Positions 5,296 through 35,500 of a stretch of 35,500 nt of DNA are shown here, in pieces. The stretch spans positions 1 to 35,500 of the IMG/VR virus record IMGVR_UViG_3300032296_001240; one strand, given 5' to 3'. The notes beneath the pieces are model-generated. The model saw nothing but the letters and a program-made list of their open reading frames with translations, searched no databases and had not been told where the DNA came from. The DNA comes from a virus. Positions within the stretch are counted from its first letter, which is position 1. The number at the start of each line of letters is the position of its first letter. Position numbers and translations under genes: made by a program.

Positions 5296-5529
5296 ATGGC
5301 TGAGAAGAAGTTTAAAACCAAAGTAGGAGGCAAGACTGTTAAGTTCGGTGCTAAAGGCTATTCTATTGCTCCAGGCACACCGAAAGGTGATGCTTACTGC
5401 GCTCGGTCATCAGGGATTAAGAAGTGCAAAGGCCCAGGCCCATGTCCAAATGACCTGAGTCGCAAAGCATGGGGCTGTGTAGGCAAGAAATCGGTGAAGT
5501 CAGCAGCTAAGAAATTTAAAAGAGCATAA
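5296..5529 (+). CDS. 77-aa basic Cys-containing small phage protein
   Basis: Lys-rich protein with four Cys in the middle: YCARSSG, IKKCKGPGPCPND, then SRKAWGC. The spacing could bind zinc. Similar small basic proteins with a GDxYCARS...LSRKxW.C pattern are, as I recall, common in tailed phages, but I know no experimental role. It starts 29 nt after the preceding basic gene and is followed by a promoter and a terminator, so it ends its own transcription unit. Confidence 0.7.
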   Translation: MAEKKFKTKVGGKTVKFGAKGYSIAPGTPKGDAYCARSSGIKKCKGPGPCPNDLSRKAWGCVGKKSVKSAAKKFKRA

Positions 5530-5532
5530 TTA

Positions 5533-5563
5533 TTTGCAAATAAATTTTATTGATTTACATTTG
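5533..5563 (+). promoter_or_regulatory. Bacteroidetes-type promoter (TTTG-N19-TACATTTG)
   Basis: TTTG at 5533-5536 and TACATTTG at 5556-5563 are separated by 19 nt, a full match to the Bacteroidetes -33/-7 consensus TTTG-N19-TAnnTTTG. Predicted start is about 5568. No start codon follows until 5678, and a terminator lies before it. Confidence 0.7.
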
Positions 5564-5567
5564 TATT

Positions 5568-5652
5568 CCCTTGGGGGAGGGAAAATTTAGTTTCATTTTT
5601 TTCATCTTGCTATGTTTTAAAAGGGCCAGCTCATAGTTGGCTCTTTTTTTTT
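5568..5652 (+). ncRNA. Candidate ~85-nt small RNA
   Basis: The interval runs from the predicted start of the consensus promoter to the end of the terminator T-tract. It has no convincing ORF. Near its 5' end CCC and GGG flank a G-rich loop (5568-5581); an AU-rich middle follows, then the terminator hairpin with its long U-tract. A promoter followed 60 nt later by a terminator is the layout of an independent small RNA. Alternatively the promoter could serve the endolysin by readthrough. Confidence 0.45.
5622..5652 (+). terminator. Rho-independent terminator
   Basis: AGGGCCA (5622-5628) pairs with TGGCTCT (5638-5644), with one G-U pair, closed by a 9-nt loop. A run of T follows to 5652. Confidence 0.8.
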
Positions 5653-5660
5653 GCCTCAGT

Positions 5661-5678
5661 TGTTGTAATTTTACAACA
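5661..5678. promoter_or_regulatory. 18-bp perfect palindrome at the endolysin start
   Basis: TGTTGTAATTTTACAACA has perfect 8-bp arms and a 2-bp centre. Its last A is the first base of the endolysin ATG. It also contains TAATTTTA, one mismatch from the -7 consensus, placed as in a leaderless promoter. It may be an operator, or an RNA hairpin that hides the start codon. Confidence 0.5.
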
Positions 5679-6043
5679 TGCAACAGCCACTAAAGCATTT
5701 TAAGTTGTCTGAGTTTGACTCACCGGATGCACCTGGTTCTGGCAGTCAAATGAAGCCTGAATTCCTACAAAGACTGGACAATGCCAGATCATTTGCTGGA
5801 GTGCCTTTTAAGGTTACATCAGGGTTCAGGACTAAAACTCATAATGAAAAAGTTGGTGGCGTTGATGATAGTTCACATTGCCAGGGATGGGCAGCAGACC
5901 TTGCTGCTTCCTCCGGTACTTCAAAGTTTACCATAGTGAATGCCCTGCTTAAAGCTGGCTTCACTCGCATAGGGATAGCAAGCTCATTCGTGCATGTAGA
6001 TTGTGACCCTACTAAGCCTGCCCAGGTGATCTGGACATATTAG
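5678..6043 (+). CDS. Endolysin, peptidase M15 family (VanY/M15A-like)
   Basis: 121 residues, a normal length for a single-domain M15 peptidase. The zinc-binding pattern is visible: SSHCQGWAADL with His67 and Asp74, and FVHVDCD with His106 and Asp108. The TSGFRT segment at 48-53 is also typical. The enzyme would cut peptide cross-links in host peptidoglycan at lysis. No signal peptide is seen, so release depends on the small membrane proteins encoded just downstream. The start overlaps the 18-bp palindrome, suggesting timed control. Confidence 0.9.
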   Translation: MQQPLKHFKLSEFDSPDAPGSGSQMKPEFLQRLDNARSFAGVPFKVTSGFRTKTHNEKVGGVDDSSHCQGWAADLAASSGTSKFTIVNALLKAGFTRIGIASSFVHVDCDPTKPAQVIWTY

Positions 6044-16036: not shown

Positions 16037-16081
16037 GTCTGTAAGTGTTATTGGTAAATGTTGAGGCAAACATAATAGATG

Positions 16082-16109
16082 CAAATATATCTGCAAAATT
16101 ATTTGCAAA
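16082..16109 (-). promoter_or_regulatory. Minus-strand promoter, TATATTTG with upstream TTTG
   Basis: On the minus strand, TATATTTG (16089-16082) is a perfect -7 element, with TTTG (16109-16106) 16 nt upstream. It points to the gene starting at 16036. Confidence 0.55.
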
Positions 16110-16115
16110 AATAAT

Positions 16116-17826: not shown

Positions 17827-17835
17827 TTATATTTG
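17807..17835 (+). promoter_or_regulatory. Promoter for the 17.84-kb structured RNA (TTTG-N17-TATATTTG)
   Basis: TTTG at 17807-17810 and a perfect TATATTTG at 17828-17835, 17 nt apart. Predicted start is about 17840-17842, exactly at the first hairpin of the RNA. Confidence 0.65.
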
Positions 17836-17839
17836 CCAT

Positions 17840-17968
17840 GCCGAAAGGCCCGGATTGCGAACCCGGTAAATTGGAACTTATGAAAAATATTAAAGCCCCA
17901 TTCGGTCAGTACCTGTCAGCCTATGTTCCGGCTGTTCGCAACAGGGAAAGCCGGATGGGGTTTTTGTT
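17840..17968 (+). ncRNA. Structured RNA with GNRA hairpin, pseudoknot and terminator helix
   Basis: 5' hairpin: GCC-GAAA-GGC at 17840-17849 (GNRA tetraloop). A second hairpin has CCGG arms at 17850-17853 and 17863-17866. The 3' domain is a long helix: 17894-17905 pairs with 17951-17962 (ten Watson-Crick and two G-U pairs), then 17912-17916 with 17941-17945, then 17917-17921 with 17930-17934. The six-base bulge TTCGCA (17935-17940) is perfectly complementary to TGCGAA (17856-17861) in the 5' loop, and the match extends to 8 bp, forming a pseudoknot. The outer helix ends in a T-tract, so it is also a terminator. The overlapping 66-codon ORF reads through this terminator and is rejected. Possible roles include a regulatory or host-targeting RNA. 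Confidence 0.7.
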
Positions 17969-17971
17969 TTT

Positions 17972-18172
17972 ATGTCAAAAAATGAAAAAAAGATTCAGGT
18001 TGTAATTACAATCAAATATCAATCAGGTGCATATCTACATCCTACTGAAGTATCAATTTGGGATGAAGACCAATGTTTAGGAACATCAACTTACGAGGAC
18101 TGGATTGACATAGACCTTGTTGAGCTTTTTGATGACCATCATTTAACTACCATTGAGTACCCTTGTTTATAG
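17972..18172 (+). CDS. 66-aa acidic hypothetical protein
   Basis: Starts right after the terminator of the structured RNA. The sequence is beta-rich, then acidic (YEDWIDIDLVELFDD). No family recognised. Expression would need readthrough of the terminator or a promoter of its own; none is obvious. Confidence 0.6.
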   Translation: MSKNEKKIQVVITIKYQSGAYLHPTEVSIWDEDQCLGTSTYEDWIDIDLVELFDDHHLTTIEYPCL

Positions 18173-20592: not shown

Positions 20593-21180
20593 ATGCAAGT
20601 AGTTTCAATCGCAGAAATCAAGCCTAATCCAAGCAATCCAAGACTTATCAAGGATGATAAGTTCAAGAAGCTCGTTCAATCGCTCAAGGATTTCCCAGAG
20701 ATGGCTAATGTCAGGCCAATAGTAGTAAATCAGGACATGGTTATCCTGGGAGGCAACATGCGATTCAAGGCCATGAAAGAGGCCAAGTGGAAGCAAGTGC
20801 CTGTGGAGATAGTTGATTGGGATGAGGCCAAGCAGCGAGAGTTCATCATCAAGGATAATGTTGGATTTGGAGAGTGGGATTGGGATGATCTCGCAAACAA
20901 TTGGGATGCAGAAGAACTTGATAAGTGGGGATTAGATGTGCCACAATTTGAAGGCATTGAAATAGGACAGGATGAATTTAGTTTACCAGATGGAGATAAA
21001 CCACCGTTTCAACAAATAACATTTACTTTAGCTGATGAACAAGCTATACAAATTCAAAATGCAATTACAAGCATAAAAACAACAAAAGAATATAAGTATG
21101 TAGAAACAATGGGTAATGAAAACTCTAATGGAAATGCTTTATATTTAATTATTGTGCAATGGGCAGGGCAAAAGATATAA
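20593..21180 (+). CDS. ParB N-terminal-domain protein (partner of Mom-like gene)
   Basis: 195 residues. The ParB/Srx nuclease-like domain is clear: SIAEIKPNPSNPRLI at the start, RPIVVNQDMVILGGNMRFKAM with the GGxxR-type motif, and IVDWDEAKQREFIIKDNVGFGEWDWD. In many phages this domain is joined to a DNA methylase; here it ends with a linker and a short tail (GNENSNGNALYLIIVQWAGQK). Its 3' 200 bases are already AT-rich like the next gene, which it overlaps by 22 nt. It probably provides DNA binding or nucleotide sensing for the modification system; that is inference. Confidence 0.8.
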   Translation: MQVVSIAEIKPNPSNPRLIKDDKFKKLVQSLKDFPEMANVRPIVVNQDMVILGGNMRFKAMKEAKWKQVPVEIVDWDEAKQREFIIKDNVGFGEWDWDDLANNWDAEELDKWGLDVPQFEGIEIGQDEFSLPDGDKPPFQQITFTLADEQAIQIQNAITSIKTTKEYKYVETMGNENSNGNALYLIIVQWAGQKI

Positions 21181-21983
21181 TTGTTAAAGTAATTCCATCT
21201 AAAATTGGAAATGAGTTTATTAAAAAGCATCATTATTCAAAAAAATCAACACTTAGTAAATTATATTTTGGATGTTTCTTAGATAATAAACTTCATGGTG
21301 TGTTATCATTTGGAGATCCAATAATAAAAAAATCACTAATGAATTTGGTAAGTAATTCATCATGGAATAATTTTATTGAGTTAAATAGAATGGCATTTGA
21401 TGACTATTTACCAAAAAACTCAGAAAGTAGGTGTATTTCAATTGCAATTAAACTAATAAAAAAAAATGCTCCACACATTGACTGGATTATAAGTTTTAGT
21501 GATGCAACCCAATGTGGAGACGGTTGTATTTATAGAGCATCAGGTTTTTATTTAACTGATATAAAAAAGAATTTTAATCTTTTTACTAATGGAAAAGAAG
21601 TAATTAGTGTAATTGGTTTTGGAACTTCTAAGGAAATTAGAAAAAGATTAAATCACGATGGAAAAACTGGGCATAGAAAATTTTTAAGACAGATAGGTTA
21701 TTATCCATCTACTGGATATCAATTAAGGTATATTTATTTAATAAATAAAAATTGCGATTTATTATGTAAATCAATTCCCTTTTCAGAAATCGATAAATTA
21801 GATGCAGGAATGTATAAAGGAAAAAAAATAACTTTGCAAGAAAGAAAACAAGCGATGGAAGTGTTAAAGGTAGCACAGGCTGCATCCAGCAGTCAGGAGG
21901 GGTTCGATTCCACCCCATCGCTCAAAGGTACTTTACAGCGAAAAAACACCGATGCCGAAGCCAGAGAATGTCATACCGCATAA
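21159..21983 (+). CDS. mom: Mom-family DNA hypermodification protein
   Basis: The ORF is 274 codons. Residues 1-231 resemble the Mom family (GNAT-like fold): FIKKHHYSKKSTLSKLYFG at the start, HGVLSFGDP, FIELNRMAF, WIISFSDATQCGDGCIYRAS and a C-terminal YKGKKITLQERK, the usual end. In phage Mu, Mom changes adenine to a glycinamide derivative that resists restriction. The last 43 codons (from residue 232) are low-quality sequence because they read through a tRNA-like element at 21852-21922. Base composition is very AT-rich (27 G/C in 120 at 21181-21300) compared with neighbours (31 in 60 at 22081-22140), a sign of transfer. No Com-like activator is seen. Confidence 0.75.
   Translation: MGRAKDIIVKVIPSKIGNEFIKKHHYSKKSTLSKLYFGCFLDNKLHGVLSFGDPIIKKSLMNLVSNSSWNNFIELNRMAFDDYLPKNSESRCISIAIKLIKKNAPHIDWIISFSDATQCGDGCIYRASGFYLTDIKKNFNLFTNGKEVISVIGFGTSKEIRKRLNHDGKTGHRKFLRQIGYYPSTGYQLRYIYLINKNCDLLCKSIPFSEIDKLDAGMYKGKKITLQERKQAMEVLKVAQAASSSQEGFDSTPSLKGTLQRKNTDAEARECHTA
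21852..21922 (+). tRNA. tRNA-Gly(UCC)-like RNA embedded in the 3' end of mom
   Basis: Cloverleaf by eye. Acceptor stem GCGATGG (21852-21858) pairs perfectly with CCATCGC (21915-21921), and the discriminator is T. The D-stem is GTGT/GCAC around an 8-nt loop with GGTA. The anticodon stem GGCTG/CAGTC closes the loop CATCCAG, giving anticodon TCC (Gly). The T-loop is TTCGATT with G53-C61. Bacterial GlyRS determinants G1:C72, C2:G71, G3:C70, C35, C36 and U73 are all there. Oddities: A instead of U at 33; 8-14 is A-U instead of U-A; T-stem mismatches at 49-65 and 51-63; a short 3-nt variable region; no encoded CCA. It may be a non-decoding tRNA, a decayed tRNA or a tRNA mimic. An alternative T-stem GGGGT/ACCCC shortens the acceptor to 5 bp. 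Confidence 0.6.
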
Positions 21984-25011: not shown

Positions 25012-25107
25012 TCGTTAGTAGCTATATTGCCGACCAGAAAAAAGTAAAGAGGTAGAACATACTTGAATAATTATGAGTGTTTTGGTTTAGATTGAACACT
25101 GGAAAGG

Positions 25108-25132
25108 GCCACTGATATTCGGTGGCTTTTTT
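25108..25132 (+). terminator. Rho-independent terminator before the tail operon
   Basis: GCCACTGA (25108-25115) pairs with TCGGTGGC (25119-25126), with one G-U pair and a 3-nt loop, followed by six T. It separates the terminase-region transcript from the tail genes. Confidence 0.8.
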
Positions 25133-25138
25133 ATTTCA

Positions 25139-25146
25139 TATCTTTG
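25139..25146 (+). promoter_or_regulatory. -7 element TATCTTTG, leaderless tape-measure promoter
   Basis: Perfect TAnnTTTG ending 4 nt before the ATG at 25151 and directly after the terminator. The transcript would start at or beside the start codon. Confidence 0.6.
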
Positions 25147-25150
25147 AGGC

Positions 25151-27559
25151 ATGGCAACATTATCAACCAATGACATCAAAATCAGGTATGACATTGACCT
25201 GAGTAAGCTACAACAAGCTACAAGTGAGTTTGATAAAATCACAGCAGAGGAGAGAGCCTTATTGAAAGAATTAGGCAAACTAAAAAAGGAATTTGATGAT
25301 GTAGGCGATAAGGCTAAAAAAGCTGGCAAAGATGCAGGCGATTCAATGGGTGGCCTGGCGCAAGTTGCCACCAAGGTAGGCCCAATTATAGCAGGCATTT
25401 TTGCTGCCGATAAGATAATGGGCTTTGCCAAAGAAGTTATTGCAGTAACTGCTGAATTTCAAAAGCTCGGTGCTGTCCTAAAGAATACACTTGGCAGTAA
25501 TAGTGCAGCACTTGGAGCATTAACCAGGATTCAGGAGTTTGCTTCAAAAACTCCTTTTAGTGTTCAAGAACTGACTCAATCCTTTGTCAAATTAGCCAAT
25601 CAAGGATTCACACCTACAAATGAGCAACTGCGAAAACTTGGTGACCTTGCAAGCTCAACAGGAAAGAGCTTTGACCAACTTACTGAGGCCATCATTGATG
25701 CACAGACCGGAGAGTTTGAAAGACTAAAGGAGTTTGGCATCCGGGCAAGTAAGGCTGGGGATAATGTAACATTTACATTTAAGGGTGTTCAAACGCAGAC
25801 CAAGTTCACCAATACTGCCATTAGGGAGTATATAACTTCCCTTGGAGACTTGCAAGGTGTAAGTGGGTCAATGGCTGCTATCTCTGGGACTTTGGGAGGT
25901 CAAATAAGTAACCTTGGAGATGCCTGGGATTCGCTGCTAAATACGATTGGAACTAACCTTGCTCCAATATTTAGTAAGGCACTTTCACTTACTGCCAACT
26001 TTTTATCGGCACTTAATAACTTATTTAAGGGTGATCAGCAAATACTAAAAGAATTTGAGGGAAAACAATATACTGCCTACTCTGAATTTTTTGTCAAGAC
26101 ATCGGATAATGCCCTAAAAAATATTGTTGCCAATTCAACAAAACGCATTAAGGTAGTCTCTGAAGAATCTAAAAAGCTAAAAGAAGAATATGACAAGCAA
26201 GCACTTGCATATAGTATAGCTCAGAGCAAGCAGATGGATGAAAAAGGTAGTGGCTTCACCTTTAGGCAGAAACAGGAAATGGAAGCTGCCAAAGCCAGAC
26301 TTGAGCAAAGCACAAAACTTGAAAAGGCATTAATCGCTCAGAATCAAGCAGCGATTGATGAGATTGAAAAGCGTAGAAAGGCAACTGAAGCAGCCACAGA
26401 ATCAACTGAAAAACAAGATAAGGCAGCTTATGATGCGAAACTTAAACTTCTGGAGCTTGAGAAGCAACAGCAAATTCTTATGGCTCAAATTAGAAATGAT
26501 AAGTTAGGTGAAGTTGGAGCTGAAAAAGTATTTGCCGAAAAGGTTTATAACCTTAAAAAAGATTACTTAGCTAAAAATATAGGCTTATCACAGGAAGAGG
26601 TAAGGGTAGCAGAACTAACTGCTGATTTGAAGGCAAAGGCATACGAAGATGCTGCCAGGAGAGAGTTACTTGCAACCAAGGAAGCCAAGGTGCAAATTGT
26701 TGCAGAGGACAAAAACATTTATGATAAGCGACTGGCTCAAATGAAGGAGTGGCAGAAGCAATATCAAGCAGGATTAGATGAGGAAGTTAAGAAAAAGAAG
26801 GAGGCAGAGGAAAGAAAGCAAGCAATTGAAGCAAAGGTTAGTGAAATTACTCAAACTCTTGTACAAGGTGGATTCGATTTATACCAGGCTAATCTTAGCA
26901 ATGAGATGACATCATTGCAAAAACGATATGATCAAGAAATTAGGTTAGCAGATGGCAACCAGCAGAAGATTGACCAATTGAATGAAGAAAAGGCAGCAAA
27001 AGAAAAAGAAATAAAGATTAAGCAATTCCGGGCAGAACAATTAGCGGCAACGGCCAGGGTTATCTTTTCCACTGCGGAGCAATTGATGTCATCGGCCTTG
27101 AAACCGGCCTTGATTCCATACATCATTAGCCTATCAGCTGCTCAGATTGGCCTTATTGCTGCCCAGCCTGTGCCTGAATTTGCAGAGGGAACTAAAGGCA
27201 AGCCATTCAAAGGAGGTAAGGCCATTGTCGGTGAGCGAGGAGTTGAAAAGGTAGTGACTGAATCTGGCAAGGTGTATTTCACTCCACCAACTGCTACTCT
27301 GGTTGATCTTCCTAAAGGCTCTCAGGTTATTCCTAATCATTCATTGAGCAGGCAGGAGCTATTCCTGGCTAATCATTACGCAAGCAGAGGTAGCAGTTCA
27401 TCCTCTCCAGTTGTGGGCAAGTTGGATGAGTTAAGCAATGTATTAAAGTCTTTGCCAATCACTCAGCTCAACATGGATGAGAGAGGTTTTGAGAAATTCA
27501 TAAGGACACCAAGGCGCACAACTAAAATCCTAAACAATCGCTTCGGCATTAATAATTAA
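25151..27559 (+). CDS. Tail tape measure protein
   Basis: 802 residues. An N-terminal coiled coil with many Lys/Ala/Gly (KKAGKDAGDSMGGLAQVATK), hydrophobic segments (VGPIIAGIFAADKIMGF, residues about 76-92), then TP901-type tape-measure features (FASKTPFSVQELTQSFVKLA and FDQLTEAIIDAQTGEFERL). A long coiled-coil middle is followed near 660-680 by a hydrophobic stretch (IPYIISLSAAQIGLIAAQP). It sets tail length; by the usual rule of about 1.5 angstrom per residue the tail would be near 120 nm. Leaderless start after the TATCTTTG element. Confidence 0.9.
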   Translation: MATLSTNDIKIRYDIDLSKLQQATSEFDKITAEERALLKELGKLKKEFDDVGDKAKKAGKDAGDSMGGLAQVATKVGPIIAGIFAADKIMGFAKEVIAVTAEFQKLGAVLKNTLGSNSAALGALTRIQEFASKTPFSVQELTQSFVKLANQGFTPTNEQLRKLGDLASSTGKSFDQLTEAIIDAQTGEFERLKEFGIRASKAGDNVTFTFKGVQTQTKFTNTAIREYITSLGDLQGVSGSMAAISGTLGGQISNLGDAWDSLLNTIGTNLAPIFSKALSLTANFLSALNNLFKGDQQILKEFEGKQYTAYSEFFVKTSDNALKNIVANSTKRIKVVSEESKKLKEEYDKQALAYSIAQSKQMDEKGSGFTFRQKQEMEAAKARLEQSTKLEKALIAQNQAAIDEIEKRRKATEAATESTEKQDKAAYDAKLKLLELEKQQQILMAQIRNDKLGEVGAEKVFAEKVYNLKKDYLAKNIGLSQEEVRVAELTADLKAKAYEDAARRELLATKEAKVQIVAEDKNIYDKRLAQMKEWQKQYQAGLDEEVKKKKEAEERKQAIEAKVSEITQTLVQGGFDLYQANLSNEMTSLQKRYDQEIRLADGNQQKIDQLNEEKAAKEKEIKIKQFRAEQLAATARVIFSTAEQLMSSALKPALIPYIISLSAAQIGLIAAQPVPEFAEGTKGKPFKGGKAIVGERGVEKVVTESGKVYFTPPTATLVDLPKGSQVIPNHSLSRQELFLANHYASRGSSSSSPVVGKLDELSNVLKSLPITQLNMDERGFEKFIRTPRRTTKILNNRFGINN

Positions 27560-33231: not shown

Positions 33232-35500
33232 TCCTAATCCATTTTACCGATTCAAACAGGCATGGAATGCCGGGTTTTATCCAGATAATCAGATTGTCTC
33301 TGACCTTCTCAATGAGTTAAGTCAGGACATTACTACGGCATTACCTACCCTATTTACGGCAGGGGTAACTCACTTGTCGCAATTGGTAAATGAGATTAAG
33401 CTAATGGTGGAGGCATTCAATGCCTATCCATACTATGGTAACTTTTCGGTGAGTTTAGATTTAGTTTCTGCTCTACCTAATTACAACTTTACCATTACCA
33501 TTAAGGATCAAGACCTATTTAACATTGATAGCACTCAGGAATTCCAAATTACCGGAGTAGCAAGCAATCCTGCTAAGATTGTTAGTTCTGCAACAGCAGG
33601 CACATTCATTCCAGGTGCTTACATAGGCTCTTTTGATGCTCCGGCAATAGCAGAGGAGGATAAGGTTAAGGAGGCACTTTATTGCGTTAAATTGAATGGG
33701 AGTGCCATATTCCCAATCACTTATAGGTTTGACCCACTAACCAATGTCGCTACTTCAGGATTAGCCAGAGGTAAGAACTGGAAACTGGATGACCAAGTAA
33801 TTAGCCGATTCCCTGCTGCGACCTTGCCACTGGAAAACCAAAGGACATTTGAACTGCCTCAATTGAGTGGAGATGATAGTTACATCATCAGCATCATGGA
33901 GCGCATCATACAGGCATCGTTTGTGGATAGTGACTACACTAACTCAATCATTGCGACCTATGATAGCTTTACATTGCCAGATGGATGGGTAGCCTACATC
34001 AATCACCCGGTATTCACCACCTATGAGCGAGTCCAGTTTGACTTTGTTGATGCTACCAGAAGGAAGTTAATTTTAGTTGGTAGGAGAGTAGGCGGTGCAT
34101 GGCTCTGGCAGAGGTTTGTAAGTGATGCATACATGAGTTCATCCTTTGACTTCTTAGCCACTTACAGCGAATCTACGGCTCTTCCTTATGAGCCTAACCA
34201 GGCAGGAAGGTGGCTTTATAATTCGGACACCTATGATCTGGAGTTTGTAGAGTTTACATCAGGATGCTATATATCCAATGAATTCTACCCAATGCCTGCA
34301 AAGCCAGGAGACCAGTTTCAGTTCAATATAGTAGATGCTAACCTAACCGGGATTGAGCAAGCCAACATTGGCCTATTCACGGAGTCAGGCTCATTTATCC
34401 AGAAGATTGGAGAGTCTAACCTGATTACTACTGATTGCATTGAGCCTCTTTACACTCCCTATCAATACACAGGACAGGTAACTATTCCGGCACTCAATGG
34501 ATGCTATCGGATGGGCCTATACAATGTAATCACTCCAGAAGGGCCAACCACTGATTGCCAGATTACCTTCACTAAGTTATTAACAGACTTTCAAGGAGAG
34601 GATTATACCAACTTTTTAATCTACATCCATACCATAGCAGCCGGGCCTAATCCGTACATAACCTTTCAGCTATCTGGTGGCAATCCTTATGTTCATCAGG
34701 TAACAGAAACAGAAACTATTGAGGAGATTGTTGCTTGGTGTAATCTTAATATCCCAGGCATGATAGCCTCTTCAGCATCAGATTCAAACATGGTGCTGTG
34801 GAAGTGGACTAAGACCTATCCATGCAGCAGTGAAGGCTATACAATGTCATGCTTCAACTCTGATTCTGCTGGAGGCTTTTTAAATGGCATCTGGGAGACT
34901 CCAGAGTACGCATGTAGTTGTGAGCCTAAGTGTACTATTTGGCAAACAGCATATTATGATGGGCAATGTGGTGCATGGTTTGAAAGTGTAAGCGATAATC
35001 CTACTGAATATTTAGGTCTATTTATTATTGACCCAATTACACTGGAGAGGACAATACTTCACAAGATTGAATGCTCAACAATACTTGCACCTGGTCAATT
35101 CTATACTTGGATAAACTCAATCCCTGGCATGTACTTCTATCAGTCACCTGATATTGAGGGCAATTGTCAAGTTTTTGCATCCTACGAAGTTGAAGTGCCT
35201 TGCGGTACTGAATACTATTGGGATTTTGGAATTTTTGATATAGATGACAATTACATTACCAGTGCTATCATTGGAGCAAATCCACTTGATGCTACTTCAT
35301 GTGAGTGTGATTCCAATTGTGAATCCACCTTTGTCATTGAGCTTGAGGGCGAAAATGCATGGGGATGGCTTGATAATATAATTACTCTGCAATACCCACT
35401 TTACACTCTCTACATCACCGATGGAACTACCATCTTTTCTGCTTTTACATTCCAGACTCCGGCCTATATCAATCCATTTATTTATGATGAGGTCTTATTG
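33224..35500 (+). CDS. N-terminal part of 987-aa virion protein (continues at base 1)
   Basis: ATG at 33224 overlaps the preceding gene by 8 nt. The frame is open to base 35500 (759 codons, including the repeated 123 bp) and continues in frame from base 124 to the TAA at 808-810. A beta-rich N-terminal region (MSNPNPFYRFKQAWNAGFYP) is followed by several domains with Cys pairs (SCEPKC, SCECDSNC). Two tandem related blocks of roughly 120-150 residues occur near the C-terminus, each with an IPGM motif; one lies before and one spans the junction. Likely a tail appendage or baseplate protein with possible surface-binding domains. Confidence 0.8.
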   Translation, partial: MSNPNPFYRFKQAWNAGFYPDNQIVSDLLNELSQDITTALPTLFTAGVTHLSQLVNEIKLMVEAFNAYPYYGNFSVSLDLVSALPNYNFTITIKDQDLFNIDSTQEFQITGVASNPAKIVSSATAGTFIPGAYIGSFDAPAIAEEDKVKEALYCVKLNGSAIFPITYRFDPLTNVATSGLARGKNWKLDDQVISRFPAATLPLENQRTFELPQLSGDDSYIISIMERIIQASFVDSDYTNSIIATYDSFTLPDGWVAYINHPVFTTYERVQFDFVDATRRKLILVGRRVGGAWLWQRFVSDAYMSSSFDFLATYSESTALPYEPNQAGRWLYNSDTYDLEFVEFTSGCYISNEFYPMPAKPGDQFQFNIVDANLTGIEQANIGLFTESGSFIQKIGESNLITTDCIEPLYTPYQYTGQVTIPALNGCYRMGLYNVITPEGPTTDCQITFTKLLTDFQGEDYTNFLIYIHTIAAGPNPYITFQLSGGNPYVHQVTETETIEEIVAWCNLNIPGMIASSASDSNMVLWKWTKTYPCSSEGYTMSCFNSDSAGGFLNGIWETPEYACSCEPKCTIWQTAYYDGQCGAWFESVSDNPTEYLGLFIIDPITLERTILHKIECSTILAPGQFYTWINSIPGMYFYQSPDIEGNCQVFASYEVEVPCGTEYYWDFGIFDIDDNYITSAIIGANPLDATSCECDSNCESTFVIELEGENAWGWLDNIITLQYPLYTLYITDGTTIFSAFTFQTPAYINPFIYDEVLL
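35378..35500. repeat. Right copy of the 123-bp terminal direct repeat
   Basis: Identical to bases 1-123. The base before this copy (35377) continues the same gene, showing that the left copy is a re-entry point, not a gene start. Confidence 0.95.

Follow-up and report, generated by a model that had tools for sequence, protein, structure and literature searches.

The window, that is, the whole stretch of DNA analysed here, is the 35,500-base virus record IMGVR_UViG_3300032296_001240. Both of its ends carry a 123-nt direct repeat (positions 1–123 and 35378–35500), which makes it likely that the genome is complete. Its products include portal, terminase, tape-measure, and tail proteins, and some of its genes are preceded by Bacteroidota-type boxes; no DNA similarity was found among named phages. 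A tRNA-Gly (TCC) at 21852–21923 lies inside the frame 21159–21983, a Mom-like modification gene. The locus under study spans the gap between a small basic protein gene, ORF77, and the endolysin gene:

5296–5529, plus strand: ORF77, a 77-aa small basic protein; the candidate unit lies just 3′ of it
5533–5563, plus strand: promoter P1, TTTG-N19-TACATTTG, Bacteroidota primary-sigma type, exact consensus match
5567–5582, plus strand: 5′ hairpin of five pairs at the predicted RNA start, from the fold
5568–5652, plus strand: predicted small RNA of about 85 nt, its start placed by taking the box as −12 to −5
5583–5618, plus strand: AU-rich linker, mostly unpaired in the fold; putative pairing region
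5619–5652, plus strand: intrinsic terminator, stem 5619–5647 and T-run to 5652
5666–5673, plus strand: P2, endolysin promoter-like box TAATTTTA; predicted start at the A of the ATG
5678–6043, plus strand: endolysin, M15-type peptidase (phrog_894, PF08291)

Neither PHROGs nor Pfam gave a match to ORF77 at E 0.01; the protein was strongly conserved, with 41 of its 77 positions invariant among 12 chosen relatives; partial matches to it came from two Vibrio phages and seven contigs binned to several phyla. Relatives of the endolysin were looked for among genome contigs and none were found.

P1 exactly matches the Bacteroidota primary promoter consensus TTTG/TAnnTTTG, as quoted in PMC7366714: TTTG at 5533–5536 is separated by a 19-nt spacer from TACATTTG at 5556–5563. 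With spacers of 18–20 nt on both strands, the window contained two full promoter matches versus a mean of 0.68 in its shuffles, and since 14 of 100 shuffles also reached two, the consensus of P1 alone is near chance and not significant. P1 had been proposed as the best promoter match in the window; the match is indeed exact, but it is tied with the second one, on the minus strand at 16067–16097, and is thus not the single best. That second match is part of a run of four tandem TAnnTTTG boxes spaced 12–15 nt apart on the minus strand (16067–16113). The position of P1 adds weight to it, as its first base lies 4 nt beyond the end of ORF77 and a strong terminator follows about 85 nt on. In F. psychrophilum, the promoter box lies at −12 to −5 (PMC9723704); P1 placed in this way gives +1 at 5568 and a predicted RNA of about 85 nt.

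The terminator stem has 13 pairs and a loop of three, and the segment 5615–5652 folded at −16.5 kcal/mol (z −6.7), which none of 200 shuffles equalled; the fold of 5566–5655 was at z −2.7, with 1 of 200 shuffles as good. The only frames of at least 20 aa overlapping the unit were a 28-aa TTG frame on the plus strand (5550–5636) and a 42-aa TTG frame on the minus strand (5555–5683). Both were set aside as short, as was a 16-aa ATG frame seen by eye inside the latter, and no minus-strand TAnnTTTG box was found near any of the three. Thus, the expectation of about 85 nt without a gene followed by a strong terminator held, with short TTG frames only and a terminator ending at 5652, and no plausible protein gene appears to lie between P1 and the terminator. 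No Rfam family matched the unit at its gathering score; matches obtained at a relaxed threshold were far below that score and not credible. Another stretch of the window, 17828–17975, has TATATTTG two nt ahead of a 55-aa frame (17838–18005), whose first 135 nt fold unusually well (z −4.3) and finish with a long stem whose T-rich tail reaches into the start of the next gene; this stretch had no Rfam match at the gathering score and no PHROG match.

We compared the slot 3′ of ORF77 in relatives of the window. Among 95 distinct ORF77 contexts, the endolysin was the next gene in 71 and something else followed in 24. The gap between ORF77 and the endolysin was at most 40 nt in 67 of the 71, and the other four, namely the window and the relatives L001, L114, and L095, had a spacer with a promoter-like box and a terminator. 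All four spacers contained a terminator; the box was an exact TAnnTTTG in three and TTCATTTG (7 of 8 positions) in L001, and the ends of the four looked alike. The clearest case came from L095 and L093, which could be aligned gap-free over 882 nt (93% identity) and 529 nt (95% identity) save for one 134-bp insert in L095. This insert comprises the entire unit, with promoter, RNA, and terminator, and is bounded by copies of a 7-bp direct repeat; the 134-bp difference could represent either a gain or a loss. The contig names of L095 and L093 carry the same metagenome dataset number, making them a natural with/without pair. No near twin of the window differing by the unit was found, so that the clean pair is L095/L093. 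A box and a terminator were also detected 3′ of ORF77 where the next gene is ParB-like, as judged by eye from resemblance to the family at 20593 in the window: TAnnTTTG in L098, L100, L101, and L110, and TAnnTTTA in L116 and L123. On this distribution, the unit is associated with the 3′ flank of ORF77 rather than with lysis, and the relatives suggest that it is an extra cassette between otherwise near-touching genes.

Next to these presence/absence data, we examined covariation in the terminator stem using ten terminators from ORF77 gaps, aligned as 29-mers that were registered by hand around the loop, a procedure that favours the stem. Eight of the 13 pairs changed on both sides, 97.7% of cells in the alignment were paired, and none of 500 shuffles reached the observed values. 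As judged from covariation in this hand-set register, the terminator is more than a chance structure. By comparison, a comparable 5′ hairpin followed 9 of 386 background TAnnTTTG sites and arose in 196 of 3000 shuffles, and because, by the criterion used, the window was the only one of six units tested to have such a hairpin at the RNA start, it was dropped as a family-wide feature. Hence, of the conserved helices for which a comparison of this gap had been proposed, the terminator stem was found to covary, whereas the 5′ hairpin was confined to the window among the six. A TAnnTTTG box was present within 120 nt upstream in 6 of the 10 ORF77-gap terminators and in none of 17 other viral-locus terminators (p 0.0007, a flattering value given the relatedness of the loci and the mostly coding DNA ahead of the other terminators). 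When either G or A was accepted at the last box position, the counts were 8 of 10 and 1 of 17. A looser first count had placed the box upstream of 7 of 28 terminators, one of them an indexing artefact; since reversed letters occurred upstream of 4 of the 28 and the box downstream of 8, TAnnTTTG is evidently common in this DNA. The pairing of promoter and terminator in the ORF77 gaps is probably beyond chance.

The RNA bodies, the stretches between these signals, gave a divided picture. Overall identity between L114 and L095 is about 75%, and their bodies matched at 47 of 50 positions in the best window, compared with a mean of 37 of 50 over the 2.2 kb compared, where 47 of 50 ties the best windows elsewhere; none of 1000 shuffles aligned as well. 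Conversely, when the window body was aligned to those of L001, L114, and L095, shuffles did as well in 82, 161, and 32 cases of 1000, respectively, and two pattern scans of viral contigs detected no relative of it, so it has no clear relationship to any of them. The window matched a covariance model built from the RNA of L114 and L095 at E 5e-5, but the match consisted of the terminator and T-run and skipped the 5′ hairpin, and for this reason the window body is not called homologous to those two. L001, the closest spacer-bearing relative of the window (about 80% identical over 2.5 kb), has a body of only about 23 nt; with its imperfect box, this unit may be decaying. The window and L001 are thus similar in sequence yet have bodies without a clear relationship, meaning that the signals persist while the body differs. 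In these four sequences, either bodies have been exchanged, or those of the window and L001 are drifting and no longer matter.

The endolysin itself has a promoter-like box close to its start codon. We scored the 63 of the 95 contexts that passed a filter for a lysin-like start with its ATG no more than 40 nt away, and found TAnnTTTR-N4-ATG (TAnnTTTA or TAnnTTTG) in all 63, in 32 distinct strings. The box also stood 4 nt before the ATG in all four spacer contexts. In most contexts its TA overlaps the ORF77 stop codon, and in the 4 of 63 where the stop lies elsewhere the box was kept. Reading 34 of 80 fetched loci, many of which share contigs, we found the box 4 nt before the endolysin ATG in 33, including five loci in which ORF77 is not just upstream (L280–L284, TATATTTA); the exception, L331, has TACATTTG 7 nt before the ATG. 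The published box position would put the transcription start on the A of the ATG, and the endolysin mRNA is thus predicted to be leaderless. This is a notable prediction, since only 5.5% of F. psychrophilum mRNAs are leaderless (PMC9723704), and the box could also have another role. At 25102–25153, a strong terminator precedes TATCTTTG, which stands 4 nt before the tape-measure ATG and again predicts a leaderless mRNA; this start region shares the operon-boundary layout of the endolysin start.

These observations bear on what the unit might be. One alternative is that the locus is an operon boundary only, at which the structural operon stops at the terminator, transcription of the endolysin begins at P2, and P1 is a chance match or a remnant that makes no important RNA. 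In keeping with such a boundary, the tape-measure gene at 25151 likewise has a terminator and then a TAnnTTTG box ahead of its ATG, the consensus of P1 is near chance, P1 is imperfect in L001, and the window body has no clear relatives. The box upstream of the terminator in 6 of 10 ORF77 gaps versus 0 of 17 other terminators, and an L114/L095 body conserved well above the surrounding average, speak against it, and we consider this explanation unlikely. An attenuator of the lysis genes, in which P1 fires constantly, transcription stops at the terminator, and an antiterminator permits read-through into the endolysin, would be in keeping with the order of promoter, terminator, and endolysin on one strand. 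There is a precedent in AlpA, which is reported to let polymerase run past an intrinsic terminator located 3′ of its promoter (PMC9371919). Against it, the endolysin has its own box in every filtered context and in L280–L284, the spacer is absent from 67 of 71 contexts, and similar units follow ORF77 ahead of ParB-like genes. In addition, no antiterminator family was found among 45 window proteins searched (PHROGs, E 0.01), although these proteins diverge fast and divergent ones could be missed. Because the P2 box is conserved with or without the unit, the endolysin has no apparent need of P1 and does not seem to depend on it. The original prediction had left the choice between a stand-alone small RNA and an attenuator controlling lysis genes. 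The former is favoured by discrete units that differ between relatives and by the conserved L114/L095 body; the latter we regard as improbable, given the endolysin's own box, the many contexts without a spacer, and the units before non-endolysin genes.

We also looked for candidate targets and genome matches of the RNA. When the linker was paired with 46 phage start regions, the best pairing was equalled by 23 of 300 shuffled linkers and was not significant. The unit matched 49 of 395 genomes at E 0.01, and its reversed letters matched 21 of 395. Among the matches listed, the linker accounted for 29 of 59 forward ones and its mirrored part for 12 of 22 reversed ones, so the forward excess is not special to the linker. 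Thirteen of 19 linker matches read in context contained, on the strand antisense to the RNA, an ATG that opens a frame of at least 43 aa, a figure without a control and from matches selected for linker coverage. An antisense linker pattern, which by nature favours gene starts, gave 7 matches versus 2 for a backwards control, too few to claim. The antisense of the window linker resembles a Bacteroidota start region with ATG AAA AAA. Because the controls fell only slightly below the linker counts and none of the phage targets reached significance, anti-start pairing is a lead only. The L114 body may resemble some CRISPR repeats. An anti-CRISPR RNA (Racr) that mimics a host CRISPR repeat is very improbable. 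Racrs are solitary viral repeat units that often lie just 3′ of a predicted promoter (PMC10651486), and a counter-defence element might well be present in some relatives, absent in others, and variable in its body, but the 21 of 59 listed matches in the 395 genomes that were read in context lay at gene starts, within genes, or at terminators, with no repeat array by eye at those 21.

Together, the promoter and terminator signals, the lack of a plausible gene, the presence/absence pair, the covarying terminator, and the L114/L095 body point to an independent, non-coding transcription unit in a Bacteroidota-type phage, an optional cassette that would constitute an RNA-only "moron"; we give this sequence-based interpretation a probability of roughly 0.6. 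The unit would be lodged between two genes that are almost contiguous in most relatives, and its own promoter would yield an RNA of about 85 nt in which an AU-rich linker joins a 5′ hairpin to the terminator hairpin. The terminator would also insulate the endolysin, started from its own promoter-like box at the ATG. We infer that the window RNA is made from P1 and that the 5′ hairpin may stabilise it. The linker might pair with a host or phage mRNA at its start region; that it acts in this way is a guess, to which we give clearly less than even odds. More speculatively, and rather unlikely in our estimation, the ORF77 3′ slot could house a family of RNA-only cassettes with a common chassis (similar ends, promoter, and covarying terminator) and exchangeable bodies, each matched to a host or rival. 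Blocks would be gained and lost at short direct repeats, and bodies might, for instance, mask the start regions of host envelope-protein mRNAs. The defined slot and the L095/L093 pair make the function of such RNAs directly testable, and the leaderless lysis mRNAs predicted from the endolysin box are likewise testable. Among the open-licence papers surveyed, none was seen to describe a small RNA from a phage of Bacteroidota.

Several known systems resemble parts of this arrangement. In phage lambda, pR′–tR′ forms the 6S RNA unit, a promoter and early terminator upstream of the lysis genes that work with Q. The window unit shares with it and with the AlpA cassette (PMC9371919) a promoter and an early terminator upstream of lysis genes. 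Unlike them, it is followed by a gene with a conserved promoter-like box of its own, it has counterparts ahead of non-lysis genes, and the 45 window proteins searched gave no antiterminator family. Like Racr (PMC10651486), it would be a solitary promoter-driven RNA in a phage, here a predicted one, whereas none of the 21 genome matches read in context, of 59 listed, was seen in a CRISPR repeat array. With phage-encoded regulatory small RNAs, as reviewed in PMC12197685, it has in common a short predicted RNA that would be driven by a promoter, ended by a terminator, and placed between phage genes. The differences are a Bacteroidota-type promoter and the absence of an Rfam family match. Morons are extra DNA between genes that are adjacent in relatives, with their own promoter and terminator. 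The unit is similarly placed, a unit of this kind being present in L095 and absent from L093, and it has its own promoter and terminator as sequence signals, P1 being imperfect in L001; in contrast to morons, a term used for phage loci in PMC7067206, the window unit would carry only an RNA and no protein gene. Phage small RNAs and morons are already known kinds, to which the window unit is a candidate addition.
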